This document shows, piece after piece, positions 1,030-26,501 of a stretch of DNA of 36,578 nt (within the stretch, counting starts at the first letter, position 1; each line of letters starts with the position of its first letter). The stretch is from Candidatus Woesearchaeota archaeon (GTDB lineage: Archaea; Nanobdellota; Nanobdellia; Woesearchaeales; JAGLGH01). Both the position numbers and the translations under genes were made by a program. Under the pieces are notes generated by a model. It had not been told where the DNA came from and did no database searches. It saw only the letters and a program-made list of their open reading frames with translations. The stretch covers positions 1-36,578 of the forward strand of contig DAOVBM010000008.1 in assembly GCA_030670545.1 (NCBI GenBank). Direction: 5' to 3'.

Positions 1030-1205
1030 GTATGTAATAAGTCTGCTGTTGAAGAAACAGTAGCATCTTCAAAACTCAGGAAGTATTTTTAGAAGGCTCT
1101 GCGTTCCCGGATGGAGCAACCCCTCGCTACGAGCAGGAATTCAAAAATGGAAGGAGTTTTGACCTGATGATGCTACTGCTTCAGGATATCTGACATATTA
1201 CATAC
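1030..1205 (+). ncRNA. Structured RNA element A, copy 1 (unassigned)
   Basis: This gap between radC and the next gene folds extensively. An outer stem pairs 1030-1039 with 1196-1205 (10 bp, perfect). CAGTAGCA at 1058-1065 pairs with 1171-1178, and TCTTC at 1066-1070 pairs with 1150-1154. This leaves a 16-base 3' bulge at 1155-1170 (AGTTTTGACCTGATGA) that is identical in copy 2. The centre has a GCTC/GAGC stem (1096-1099 with 1131-1134) enclosing a small hairpin with a CGGAT loop at 1106-1110 or so. Sequence and pairing recur at 2621-2852. A competing hairpin pairs 1049-1055 with 1066-1072. Plus strand is preferred because a G-U pair in the core would become A-C on the other strand. I cannot match it to a known RNA class. 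Confidence 0.6.
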
Positions 1206-1215
1206 GAGGGGATTA

Positions 1216-1407
1216 TCAATTGAATCTTTTCCTTAAATATATGCCATGTTTCTCAAGATCTTTTTCCCATCCCTTCTCTCCTTTATGGCAGTCATGTATA
1301 TGCTCGCCTAGGTTCCTGAATATGGTATGGCAGTAGGGGCACCTGCCTTCTGCATATTTCTGTGTCTCCTTCCTAGGGTTATGCCACCCCCTTTTTGCAG
1401 TGACCAT
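1216..1407 (-). CDS. Small zinc-finger-like protein
   Basis: The protein has 63 residues. C23-x2-C26 is followed by H36 and C40 or H41 (CPYCHTIFRNLGEHIHDC), which fits a single C2H2/C2HC zinc finger. Basic residues flank the finger (MVTAKRGWHNPRK at the start, YLRKRF near the end), consistent with nucleic-acid binding, which is inference. It reads toward the RNA element at 1030-1205, its stop lying 10 bases from the outer stem. Such single-finger miniproteins are common in archaea and rarely have assigned functions. Confidence 0.65.
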   Translation of the reverse strand: MVTAKRGWHNPRKETQKYAEGRCPYCHTIFRNLGEHIHDCHKGEKGWEKDLEKHGIYLRKRFN

Positions 1408-1479
1408 CCTTATCTGAATGAAGAATTGAATATATAATTATGAGGTTTAATAATTCAACGCAGGAACTATTCAATATTA

Positions 1480-2208
1480 TTATGCTGTTTCTTCTTCATT
1501 TGTTTCAGGCTCTTTGCTTTCTGCTTTTTCTTCACTTTCTTTTTTGGCTGCTTTCTTTGCGCGGGTCTTTGGCAGGATTACAACTTCTCCTCCTGTCGAC
1601 CACCTGAGAAATATCCTTTCCACAAGCTTTATCATCTGTATGGCTCCAAGAAATAAGAAGAAGAGAACAAGCGCAGCAATAAGGGTAGTCCTATCGAATT
1701 TCACATCAGTATATATGATTGTCATTGCGACATATGCTGTCAGATTTATGGGAAGAGATGATGACATAAAAAAAGACAATTTTTTAGGGATTGCATGGAG
1801 AAAGTTGACTAAAAGCAGCATAATGCCCAGAAATCCTACTGCAAGCGATATAGCAGTCTTCAGGGCATTGACTTCAAAATTTAGTATGGCGGGGTTTAAT
1901 ATGCCTCCAACTTCTCCATTGTAAATCTGCCTTAAAAGGTCTATTGAGATAAAGAAAAGCACAAGGCTGTTTCCTACTGCTGTATTCCAGCCAAGCTCTT
2001 CTGTCTCATACCTGCCGAAATAGAATGTCATGAGAAGAAGTGTGACAACCAACGGCACAACCATCCATATCATGTCAGGATTATTCTTTGGAGCGCTAAT
2101 CAGCTCCATTACCCTATCTATAATCCTTGGGAGAAGATCATTCATGAGGTAACCCTGCCTTGAGATATTTTCTGTAAAGACAGTTGCCTGCAACAGCGTG
2201 AATATCAT
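1480..2208 (-). CDS. Multi-pass membrane protein, unknown
   Basis: The 242-residue protein has about five hydrophobic segments, near residues 46-64, 76-94, 115-137, 148-166 and 175-193. A cytosolic-type tail from residue 215 is rich in lysine, alanine and glutamate (KTRAKKAAKKESEEKAESK). No catalytic or transport motif is recognised. The ATG at 2206-2208 is the furthest upstream; a later methionine at residue 22 is an alternative that would still keep all membrane segments. A TATA-like stretch at 2231-2240 lies just upstream on this strand. The lysine/glutamate tail resembles the tail of eS1 in this window in composition only. Confidence 0.7.
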   Translation of the reverse strand: MIFTLLQATVFTENISRQGYLMNDLLPRIIDRVMELISAPKNNPDMIWMVVPLVVTLLLMTFYFGRYETEELGWNTAVGNSLVLFFISIDLLRQIYNGEVGGILNPAILNFEVNALKTAISLAVGFLGIMLLLVNFLHAIPKKLSFFMSSSLPINLTAYVAMTIIYTDVKFDRTTLIAALVLFFLFLGAIQMIKLVERIFLRWSTGGEVVILPKTRAKKAAKKESEEKAESKEPETNEEETA

Positions 2209-2284
2209 GTCCCACGTATCGCCTGGAGGATATTTAAGTATATGGTTGAATAGCTAAACAAGAATTCTCTATGGAAATTTTGGT

Positions 2285-2524
2285 CTAATTATCAAGAAGA
2301 CAGCGCATACTGATAAGATCCATCTTGTTTTCATCACACCATCGCCTCTTGAAATCCTTGAATTCCTTACCTCTGCCGTATTTCCTAAGCAGCCTTATAT
2401 ATGCATGCTGTTCTCCATAAAGAAAATCCCTGACTTCCTTTATTTCTGCCTTCTTTATCTGCTCTTCAATTTCCTGCAGCCATCTTATGATGTCTGGCAC
2501 AGGCACATCCATTGTTTCTGCCAT
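2285..2524 (-). CDS. Small helical hypothetical protein
   Basis: The 79-residue charged protein is predicted by eye to be mostly helical, with no cysteine motif except isolated cysteines near the end and no membrane segment. It begins MAETMDVPVPDIIRWLQEIE and carries a basic stretch (RLLRKYGRGKEFKDFKRRW). An AT-rich promoter-like stretch (TTTAAAATATTAAGG on the plus strand, 2550-2564) lies upstream of its start. The gene stands alone between a membrane-protein gene and RNA element A copy 2. I do not recognise the family. Confidence 0.6.
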   Translation of the reverse strand: MAETMDVPVPDIIRWLQEIEEQIKKAEIKEVRDFLYGEQHAYIRLLRKYGRGKEFKDFKRRWCDENKMDLISMRCLLDN

Positions 2525-2620
2525 GATTCCTTTTGAGAAATGCTTGATTTAAAATATTAAGGTTTAGGAAGTAAACCTTCTCAAAATTTTCCTAAAAAAA
2601 CAAATATTTAGTCGTTTGTA

Positions 2621-2852
2621 TATAGAGTATAGCACCTTCAAATCTTGATGAGCATAGCTCATTAAGTCTTGAGGAGTAAAACTCCTTAAGAACTTAGAAA
2701 GCTATGCTTTCCAAGTAAGTTAGAGAGCTTTGCTCTCCAACTACTCTTTATGTATCTCTAGAAAGCTCTGTGTCCCCGGATGGGGCGTCCCCCCACAACG
2801 AGCAAGATATAATTCTTGAAGGAGTTTTGACCTGATGATGCTATACTCTATA
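2621..2852 (+). ncRNA. Structured RNA element A, copy 2 (unassigned)
   Basis: A perfect 14-bp stem closes the element (2621-2634 with 2839-2852). Next comes CCTTC at 2635-2639 paired with GAAGG at 2818-2822, then the invariant 16-base 3' bulge AGTTTTGACCTGATGA at 2823-2838, as in copy 1. The core (2761-2805) matches copy 1 closely: GCTC/GAGC stem at 2765-2768 and 2800-2803, and an inner hairpin with a CGGAT loop whose closing pair is C-G here and T-A in copy 1. The main difference is a four-hairpin insertion at 2643-2742. A TATA-like AAATATTTAG near 2602-2611 sits about 25 bases before the stem, consistent with its own plus-strand transcript. No coding frame explains the conservation. RNA class unknown. 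Confidence 0.65.
2643..2742 (+). repeat. Array of four 25-nt hairpins with triloops
   Basis: Four consecutive hairpins of the same design occupy 2643-2667, 2667-2691, 2692-2716 and 2718-2742. Each has ten or eleven paired positions around a 3-base loop (ATA, AAA, TAT, TTT). Sequences differ between units while pairing is kept: the second position is C-G in three units and G-C in the fourth, and inner positions switch between A-T, G-C and T-A. One position (5 with 21) is a wobble-like pair in every unit, G-U in the first two and A-C in the last two. The array is inside RNA element A copy 2 and absent from copy 1. Confidence 0.75.
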
Positions 2853-2900
2853 ATATAGTTAACTAAATACTCACAATAAACAAAATATTTTTAAAGTATA

Positions 2901-3518: not shown

Positions 3519-6026
3519 ATGAAGCTTACACCAGGTATGAAACAGTATATGGAAATCAAGAATAAGAATCCTGATGCTATATGCCTGTTCAGGATGGGAG
3601 ATTTCTATGAGACATTCTATGAGGATGCAAAGACAGTCGCAAGAGAGCTTAATATAGTGCTTACATCAAGAGGAAAAGGAGAAACAAAGGCTCCGCTTGC
3701 AGGACTGCCATATCATGCCCTGGATAAGTATCTTGCAAAGCTTATAAAAAAGGGATACAAGGTGGCTATTGTAGAGCAGCTTGAAGACCCAAAGAAAGCA
3801 AAAGGCCTTGTGAAAAGAGGGCTTGTAAGGATAGTCACTCCAGGCACAGTGATTGAAGATTCTATACTTGATGAAAAAAGCAATAATTACCTATTCTCTG
3901 TGGTAAAAGATAAAGACAGCTTTGGCATAGCAATAGCTGACATATCAACTGGTGAGTTTCTTACATCAAGAGCAGAAGGCATGAACAAGCTTTTATCTGA
4001 GATAACAAGGTTCAGCCCAAAAGAGTGCATCATCCCTTTATCACAGGAAGATACTGACTGGGCAAAGGACATAAAAGAGACAGGCGCGATAATATACAGC
4101 TATGATGACAGGCATTTCTGGGATGAGAAGAGCAGAGAGATGCTGAAAGAGCATTTCAATGTAATCAATCTGGAGGGATTCGGCATAGAGAAAGAAGAGC
4201 TTATGATCCGCGCGTCAGGAGCTCTTGTAAGCTATCTCAGGGAGACGCAGATGACATCTTTGCAGCACATAAACAGCATAAAGAGATTCAATGATTCTGA
4301 ATACATGATAATTGATGCAAGCACTCAGCGCAACCTTGAGTTGATAAACAATATCAGGGATGGAAGCCAAAGAGGAACGCTGATAAGCGCAATTGACAAG
4401 ACAAGGACTCCAATGGGCTCAAGGCTTTTGAAGAAATGGCTTCTCAGGCCGCTTCTGGATATAAAAGAGATAAGTAAGAGGCAGGATGCCGTCGAAGAGA
4501 TGTTGGATGATACAATAAAAAGGCAGTCAATAAGGGATAGCCTGAAACATATTCTTGATATGGAAAGACTCATAAGCAGGATAAGCTATGGCGCAGCAAA
4601 TGCGCGTGACCTTAATGCACTCAAAAGATCGCTGTCATTTATTCCAGATATAAGAGATACGCTGTCAGATTCTGATTCTCTGATGCTCAGGGATATCTCA
4701 AATATGGACAGCTTAGAGAGCATCCATGAACTAATAGATAAAGCTATTGAAGAAGACCCTCCTGTGTCACTGCGTGAAGGAAACCTGATAAGAGCTGATT
4801 ATGATGAAGAGCTGAAACAGCTGAAGCAAATAACAAGAGGGGGGAAAAGCTACATTGCAGGGCTTGAAGAAAAAGAGAAGCAGAGGACAGGGATAAAATC
4901 ACTTAAGATAAAATACAATAGGGTGTTTGGCTATTTCATAGAAGTCACAAAATCAAACCTTAATCTTGTCCCAAAAGAATACATCAGAAAGCAGACACAG
5001 TTAAACTGCGAAAGATTTATCACAGAAGAGCTGAAGCAGCAGGAAGAGATTATTCTTGGCGCAGATGAAAAGATGCGGGAGCTTGAATACCAAATCTTTC
5101 AGGATATCATAAAGGAGATAGTTGAGCAGACACAACATATACAGAAGACTGCTGATTCCATAGCAATGCTTGATGTGATTGCATCCTTTGCAAATATCGC
5201 TGCTGACAAGAGCTATGCAAGGCCTCTTATCAATAGTGAAGAAAACATCCACATTATAGATTGCAGGCATCCTGTGCTTGAGACACTTGAGGATATATAC
5301 ATACCAAATGACATATCAATAGACAAGGATAACCTTATCCAGATAATCACAGGGCCGAACATGGCTGGTAAATCATCTTATATGAGGCAGGCTGCGCTTA
5401 ATGTTATTCTCGCGCAGATAGGATCATTTATACCTGCTGCAAAAGCATCAATATGCTTAGTTGACAGGATATTCACAAGAGTGGGAGCATATGATGACCT
5501 TACAATGGGCCAGTCAACATTCATGGTTGAAATGAATGAGACAGCCAATATCCTGAATAATGCGACATCTAAATCATTCATTATACTTGACGAGATAGGA
5601 AGAGGGACATCAACATATGATGGAGTATCATTAGCATGGGCTATTGCAGAATACATACATGACAAGATAAAAGCAAAGACATTATTTGCAACACATTACC
5701 ATCAGATGAACAAGCTTGAGGAAAAATTTCCAGGAATCAGGAACTATAATATCGCTGTCAAGGAAAAGGATGACAAGATAATATTCTTAAGAAAGATTAT
5801 GGAAGGAGGCACTGACAAGAGCTATGGAATACAGGTGGCAAAGCTTGCAGGAGTCCCACAGGGAGTCATTGCCAGGAGTAAGATCATCATGACAAGGCTT
5901 GAAATGGAAGATGAGATAGGAGAAAGGATACATGCTGATCTAAAGCCTAAGAAAAAGGATAAGGTTGAAGAAAAAGAAGTGAAAGTTAATGATAATTCTA
6001 CACAGAAGAGTCTGCTGGATGTTTGA
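3519..6026 (+). CDS. mutS: DNA mismatch repair protein MutS
   Basis: At 835 residues this is a complete MutS1. The N-terminal mismatch-recognition domain keeps the F-x-E motif (F29-Y30-E31 in RMGDFYETF). The C-terminal ABC-type ATPase has Walker A GPNMAGKSS at 612-620 and Walker B with the signature following (ILDEIGRGTSTYDG, D691-E692). MutS dimers bind mismatches and small loops and use ATP to recruit MutL. No mutL is present in this window. MutS1 is scattered in archaea and is usually explained by transfer from bacteria; that explanation is inference here. The C-terminal 30 residues are lysine-rich. The start follows a TATA box and a G-run. Confidence 0.97.
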   Translation: MKLTPGMKQYMEIKNKNPDAICLFRMGDFYETFYEDAKTVARELNIVLTSRGKGETKAPLAGLPYHALDKYLAKLIKKGYKVAIVEQLEDPKKAKGLVKRGLVRIVTPGTVIEDSILDEKSNNYLFSVVKDKDSFGIAIADISTGEFLTSRAEGMNKLLSEITRFSPKECIIPLSQEDTDWAKDIKETGAIIYSYDDRHFWDEKSREMLKEHFNVINLEGFGIEKEELMIRASGALVSYLRETQMTSLQHINSIKRFNDSEYMIIDASTQRNLELINNIRDGSQRGTLISAIDKTRTPMGSRLLKKWLLRPLLDIKEISKRQDAVEEMLDDTIKRQSIRDSLKHILDMERLISRISYGAANARDLNALKRSLSFIPDIRDTLSDSDSLMLRDISNMDSLESIHELIDKAIEEDPPVSLREGNLIRADYDEELKQLKQITRGGKSYIAGLEEKEKQRTGIKSLKIKYNRVFGYFIEVTKSNLNLVPKEYIRKQTQLNCERFITEELKQQEEIILGADEKMRELEYQIFQDIIKEIVEQTQHIQKTADSIAMLDVIASFANIAADKSYARPLINSEENIHIIDCRHPVLETLEDIYIPNDISIDKDNLIQIITGPNMAGKSSYMRQAALNVILAQIGSFIPAAKASICLVDRIFTRVGAYDDLTMGQSTFMVEMNETANILNNATSKSFIILDEIGRGTSTYDGVSLAWAIAEYIHDKIKAKTLFATHYHQMNKLEEKFPGIRNYNIAVKEKDDKIIFLRKIMEGGTDKSYGIQVAKLAGVPQGVIARSKIIMTRLEMEDEIGERIHADLKPKKKDKVEEKEVKVNDNSTQKSLLDV

Positions 6027-26427: not shown

Positions 26428-26501
26428 TGGGGCTGCGAGGATTTGAACCCCGATTAAGAGACCCCCAGCCTCCAGTGATAACCAAATTACACTACAGCCC
26501 C
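26428..26501 (-). tRNA. tRNA-Pro (anticodon GGG)
   Basis: On the minus strand a full cloverleaf forms: acceptor GGGGCTG with CAGCCCC and discriminator A; D arm closed by GTG/CAC; anticodon stem GGAGG with TCTCT (two G-U pairs) around the loop CTGGGGG, giving anticodon GGG; short variable loop TAAT; T arm CGGGG-TTCAAAT-CCTCG. It is 74 bases with no intron. CCA is not encoded, as is common in archaea. The small gene at 26549 lies upstream on the same strand. Confidence 0.93.

Follow-up and report, generated by a model that had tools for sequence, protein, structure and literature searches.

Two intergenic stretches of the 36,578-nucleotide Woesearchaeales contig analyzed here (the window) each hold one copy of a non-autonomous DNA transposon (MITE) that reaches high copy number in this order. 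Our best explanation, to which we assign a probability of roughly 0.72, is an IS66-moved MITE carrying a structured RNA core that would serve the element when transcribed. The analysis established a mobility signature and a core whose helices covary, and it found this core in another type of element as well.

Two copies of one element in the window

The preliminary description of this DNA reported two related structured RNAs sharing an identical 16-base bulge. The shared core is real, with a similarity far above chance, and the 16-mer AGTTTTGACCTGATGA is indeed identical at 1155-1170 and 2823-2838. Both stretches are gene-free as claimed (intergenic at 1021-1215 and 2525-2900), and both carry the GCTC/GAGC stem around a CGGAT-loop hairpin, with the T-A to C-G change between TTCC[CGGAT]GGAG and TCCC[CGGAT]GGGG. 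Two other features had to be redrawn. Most of the 16 bases are not bulged, since GAGUUUUGA is paired to UCAAAACUC; the unpaired part is only CCUGAU, which faces a single U. The YCTTC/GAAGG stem was abandoned, as its two sides do not covary: CTTC hardly changes, whereas its partner GAAGG is freely replaced (by GAGAG, GATTA or CAATA). The compensated outer stem (CAG/CTG versus GTA/TAC flanking TAGCA/TGCTA) can be seen, but it says little about RNA because it lies in or beside the terminal inverted repeats of a transposon. The idea of a conserved structured RNA of no known class holds in that the inner helices covary, homologues were found and no Rfam family matches, but it had missed the mobility of the sequence.

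The features of both copies are collected in Table 1. The sequences flanking copy 1, GCCTGGAT and GAGGGGAT, agree at 5 of 8 positions only, a degraded target duplication; a clear target duplication is absent at copy 2 (2600..2874), whose degenerate ends can be compared with GTAAGTATTTAGTC and GACTAAATACTTAC of another copy (L016). Given the degraded flanks of the one and the degenerate ends of the other, both are older insertions. The extra hairpin module of copy 2 recurs in four other copies (L005, L011, L019, L036). Judged from their translations, RadC-like (343-1020) and MutS-like (3519-6026) genes flank the window copies, and a tRNA-Pro(GGG) lies on the minus strand of the window at 26428-26501.

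Table 1. Positions of the element copies and their parts in the window, and loci of composite elements and IS66 ends.
Feature	Position or locus	Strand	Remark
Copy 1, whole MITE-like element	1030..1205	+	176 bp; terminal inverted repeats at both ends; organised like the ~95 genome copies
Copy 1, left terminal inverted repeat GTATGTAATAAGTC	1030..1043	+	resembles IS66 end GTAAGTAATAAGT of L230
Copy 1, right terminal inverted repeat GACATATTACATAC	1192..1205	-
Copy 1, P1 5' strand AGCATC	1062..1067	+	partner 1169-1174
Copy 1, P2 5' strand UCAAAACUC	1069..1077	+	partner 1154-1162
Copy 1, central arm	1096..1134	+	P3, P4, P5, bulge and third strand
Copy 1, P3 GCUC/GAGC	1096-1099, 1131-1134	+
Copy 1, P4 UGCG/CGCU	1100-1103, 1125-1128	+
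Copy 1, P5 hairpin UUCC[CGGAU]GGAG	1104-1116	+
Copy 1, putative third strand CCU	1122-1124	+
Copy 1, 2-nt bulge AC	1129-1130	+
Copy 1, P2 3' strand GAGUUUUGA	1154..1162	+
Copy 1, unpaired bulge CCUGAU	1163..1168	+	family form CCUKAU; opposite single U1068
Copy 1, P1 3' strand GAUGCU	1169..1174	+
Copy 2, whole element	2600..2874	+	~275 bp; degenerate terminal repeats ACAAATATTTAGTC / AACTAAATACTCAC
Copy 2, extra hairpin module	2646..2747	+	lies within the 5' P2-P3 junction as an insertion
Copy 2, central arm	2765..2803	+	P3 GCUC/GAGC, P4 UGUG/CACA, P5 UCCC[CGGAU]GGGG
Copy 2, GAGUUUUGA (P2), CCUGAU bulge, GAUGCU (P1)	2822..2842	+
Composite elements	L177 1365-1652 (= L080); also L178, L189
IS66 end GTATGTGCATAGC	L204, L205		L205 duplication GAGGGTGG
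IS66 end GTATTTGTTTAGC	L215, L217, L218		compare RNA elements L184, L084
IS66 end GTATGTGATTAGC	L207		compare RNA element L193
IS66 end GTATCTGCTAACG	L206		compare L038, L048 in the window's genome
IS66 end GTAAGTAATAAGT	L230		compare window-type ends

Copy number, ends and target duplications

The window's genome (G000; 1.48 Mb in 88 contigs) contains 51 matches to the 16-mer when 2 mismatches are allowed (39 are exact), and 50 further matches to a variant one C shorter, GTTTTGACTGATGATGCT; reversed controls gave 0 for each. As a few of these matches are chance hits or half copies, we estimate about 95 copies, which are dispersed and occupy roughly 1.4% of the genome. A second genome (G048) holds about 50. 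The copies measure about 135-300 bp, carry no transposase gene and are bounded by the inverted repeats GTATGTAATAAGTC or GTAAGTAAAAAGTC. Among 92 elements with both ends, drawn from several genomes, 48 are flanked by perfect 8-bp target duplications and 14 more by duplications agreeing at 7 of 8 positions (shuffled control, 0.5), while duplications of other lengths (4-7 and 9-11 bp) gave 0-2 perfect matches. The family therefore unites what defines a MITE: terminal inverted repeats, a target duplication of fixed length, short size, no genes and many copies.

Several variants were seen among the copies. At three loci (L017, L040, L102), 3' half-copies adjoin the ends of unrelated ORFs, that of L102 being MscL-like by eye. 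We rejected the view that these are gene cassettes carried by the element, since the ORFs stand beside half-copies and the cargo is inconsistent; deletion scars or captured genes are possible origins. A separate hairpin module of about 190 nt, GGAAATCC...TTTCGTGT, is nested at differing unpaired junctions of the element (L031, L037, L020, L149 and L159 in the window's genome), and other modules (GATGAGC..GCTCATT and CAACTGG..CCAGTTG) recur too, always in loops. A search of viral contigs for the core returned two chance matches inside other sequence.

IS66 elements with matching ends

In G048, an IS66-family transposase gene (PF03050) adjoins a DUF2080 ORF, and both lie behind GTATGTGCATAGC, which is exactly (13/13 bp) the sequence ending the RNA elements of that genome. 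Complete IS66 elements with 13-bp inverted ends matching those of RNA elements were also found in other genomes of the order (Table 1), and six IS66 elements with matching 12-bp ends have perfect 8-bp duplications (L205, L207, L215, L218, L224, L228). Neither an IS66 nor a DDE_Tnp_1 gene was found in the window's genome, which is 93% complete with its 88 contigs breaking at repeats, and the IS66 partner there is therefore deduced from another genome (G249), where the nearest end, GTAAGTAATAAGT, is similar, not identical, to the window genome's type. Judging from these end sequences, the window copies were most likely moved in trans by IS66-type transposases. Co-occurrence of IS66 with the RNA is modest, the latter being present in 13 of 27 IS66 genomes (Fisher p 0.03).

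The autonomous IS66 elements lack the core, and covariance-model matches at IS66 loci fall outside the IS66 ends, which speaks against the core being needed for the chemistry of transposition. A search through solitary ends in the window's genome for an autonomous element returned further short copies and solitary remnants only, and DDE_Tnp_1 was discarded as a partner for want of matching ends. The archaeal IS66 elements (L170, 1503-2826; L217, 1366-2840) consist of a small DUF2080 ORF and a single IS66-type transposase gene, with no recognised tnpA or tnpB. At one locus (L229), an IS66 transposase gene (1369-2388) is followed, about 45 bp downstream and on the same strand, by an RNA element of the GGCT type (1202-1324).

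The same core on unrelated ends

The core was also found in elements of about 165 bp with GGCTCTGT-like ends in seven genomes (G092, G005, G076, G240, G271, G219, G467); examples of these ends are GGCTCTGTAGAAAAT, GGCTCTGTCCGGAAT, GGCTGCGTTGAAAAT and AGCTCCATCCAAAAA. Here the target duplications are 9 bp long, with 12 of 15 agreeing at 8 or more of the 9 positions (control mean, 0.7), and P1 takes other forms, among them AGCAGC/GCTGCT, ATTGGC/GCCAAT and TTGGCC/GGCCAA. We take these ends to resemble IS903-type IS5 ends; a search for an autonomous partner or transposase with ends of the GGCTCTGT group found none. Hence one RNA core is shared by at least two types of mobile DNA that are unrelated to each other.

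Some genomes hold composites, in which one pair of GTAATACTTCA-type ends encloses two cores in opposite orientation; transcription from either side would then give one sense core. In elements of the GGCT type (L240, L245-L255), the 5' side has an additional conserved linker, CTCGCTTCGCTCGG-like, that faces a short 3' side resembling TACA.

Covariation and a putative base triple in the core

The predicted fold begins with P1 (AGCAUC/GAUGCU), an internal loop of U versus CCUKAU, and P2 (UCAAAACUC/GAGUUUUGA), followed by variable junctions, P3, the AC bulge, P4, and P5 with a CGNAN loop. In an alignment of 50 diverse core sequences (A3), 96.7% of the cells pair, against 83.9 in shuffled alignments and 34-47% in slid versions, and the covariation score is 0.409 (0.167 in shuffles). 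Changes on both sides compensate each other in 20 of the 27 pairs, a count that includes related sequences. P3 occurs in at least eight complementary forms (GCUC/GAGC, GAGC/GCUC, GUGC/GCAC, GUCC/GGAC, AUGC/GCAU, GGGC/GCCC, GCCC/GGGC, GCGC/GCGC), and P2 covaries as AAAACT/AGTTTT, AAAATT/AATTTT and GAAATC/GATTTC. Because in the IS66 group P1 abuts the transposon ends, the case for RNA rests on P2-P5, which lie outside the terminal repeats and covary more than either the shuffled or the slid controls, as expected of a new structured RNA. On the plus strand there are 64 GU cells against 11 AC cells, 51 of the 64 coming from two columns, which points to the plus strand as the folded one. From these comparisons we infer that the core folds as RNA.

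After P5, the sequence reads CNN, then two C, then three pyrimidines. Of these pyrimidines, the last covaries with P5 as C-G·C or U-A·U in 74 of 79 distinct arms (40.7 expected), and the middle one is consistent in all 79, including the two A/U cases (L084, L197). The third-strand letter thus tracks the purine strand, C accompanying G and U accompanying A. An antiparallel third strand was rejected, as it would place A opposite C (A55/C62) in 30 arms, and parallel order is consequently preferred. This pattern suggests that a parallel pyrimidine third strand probably lies in the major groove of the P5 hairpin.

A gathering scan of the window with Rfam 15 returned the tRNA-Pro only, and permissive Rfam 15 scans gave chance-level matches only. 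A C/D-type reading of the letters CUGAUGA was discarded, with CUUAUGA in relatives and the partner motif absent. In the literature we found no description of a Woesearchaeota MITE or structured RNA.

Distribution in the order

A covariance-model search, which the preliminary description had proposed, found the core in 102 of 353 genomes and 75 of 220 genera of the order (E<=1e-3), all compared as MAG assemblies; the model was trained on sequences from only a few of these genomes and scores partly on sequence rather than structure alone, and its E-values are rough. Copy numbers from this search are lower bounds, with nine candidates scored per genome. In a phylum-wide draw, the single further match outside the order came from one genome of the same class. 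Named records with the core include Woesearchaeota JACRPH010000083 and archaeon DeMMO3_35.

A model for the core and its alternatives

We propose that IS66-family transposases recognise the 13-14 bp ends in trans and leave 8-bp target duplications. Between these ends, the structured core of about 110 nt, read on the plus strand, would form two stacked outer helices split by the conserved CCUKAU/U internal loop, and then an arm with the 2-nt AC bulge and a hairpin holding a parallel pyrimidine third strand in its major groove. Once transcribed, the core may bind a cellular protein or help in some other way the element to spread or to be tolerated. We favour such a module, acting at the RNA level for the element, over a regulator of host genes.

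An alternative, which we consider unlikely, is that the structure works as single-stranded DNA, either joining the ends or serving as a binding site for the machinery of transposition or replication. In its favour, the whole element amounts essentially to a single long hairpin with its ends at the base, and the core always lies inside transposons, in either orientation to genes. Nevertheless, autonomous IS66 elements share the ends and do without the core, the same core is found with 8-bp and with 9-bp duplications, and a base triple and tolerance of G-T/G-U at two positions would be less natural in DNA than in RNA.

Less probable again is a catalytic RNA, self-cleaving or other, acting in the processing of the element's transcripts. 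The compact and strongly conserved internal loops (CUUC / GACCUKA, the AC bulge, the CGNAN loop and the third strand) recall small ribozymes, yet no Rfam ribozyme matches and no cleavage site can be named. We specifically rejected a hammerhead: copies in the window's genome share its CUGAUGA letters, but many relatives read CUUAUGA, the GAAA strand is absent (A1, A3) and the helix plan is different.

We give still poorer odds to a host-useful cis-regulatory or UTR element merely spread by transposition. The examined copies are intergenic and often near gene ends, but their neighbours differ, they are mobile and mostly keep intact duplications, and they lie at near-random orientation to neighbouring genes (31/26/20/14 across the four classes), an argument against host regulation. 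The left neighbour is antisense in 57 of 91 cases (p 0.02) and the right in 46 of 91, too weak a bias for a rule, and no rule of orientation or distance relative to host genes pointed to a function. Finally, an ordinary MITE whose inverted repeats yield covariation without RNA function is highly improbable: terminal repeats that stay complementary for transposase binding can mimic compensatory change, but P2-P5 lie far inside the ends as separate helices with asymmetric loops, covary above the shuffled and slid controls, and are conserved while the ends differ.

Relation to known systems

Like IS66-family MITEs, these elements are short, gene-free and high in copy number, with 13-14 bp ends like those of IS66 relatives and 8-bp duplications; unlike them, they contain a covarying RNA core that autonomous IS66 elements lack, and this one core is combined with several IS66-type ends and with unrelated ends. 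The BOX, ERIC and REP repeats of bacteria are likewise dispersed, modular, hairpin-forming and intergenic. In contrast to those repeats, the present core spans about 110 nt, has internal loops and a probable base triple, and recurs in conserved form in about 100 genomes within one archaeal order. Transposon guide RNAs (omega RNA of IS200/IS605; bridge or seek RNA of IS110, PMC11187229) are also structured non-coding RNAs in mobile elements, whereas here the element has no ORF, makes 8- or 9-bp duplications, has inverted ends and no recognised variable guide segment, and shares its ends with an IS66 (DDE) transposase.

These results also expose a pitfall: in repeats of this kind, covariation of the outer stem is a product of the transposon ends, and only inner helices count as evidence for RNA. 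The interior of a MITE is usually regarded as dispensable filler between its end sequences; in this family it is the interior that is conserved. The finding adds a new high-copy structured-RNA family, present in about 100 genomes and on at least two transposon types, in an archaeal order with almost no genetics. Tentatively, and as a possibility rather than an expectation, we suggest that it represents a new class of selfish RNA module, in which one folded domain, unlike known RNAs, would persist across the order on unrelated transposons (IS66-type and GGCTCTGT/9-bp) by swapping ends, its core and pyrimidine triple being kept by an RNA-level use to the element. The family also gives an opportunity to test whether an RNA can contribute to the success of a DNA transposon.
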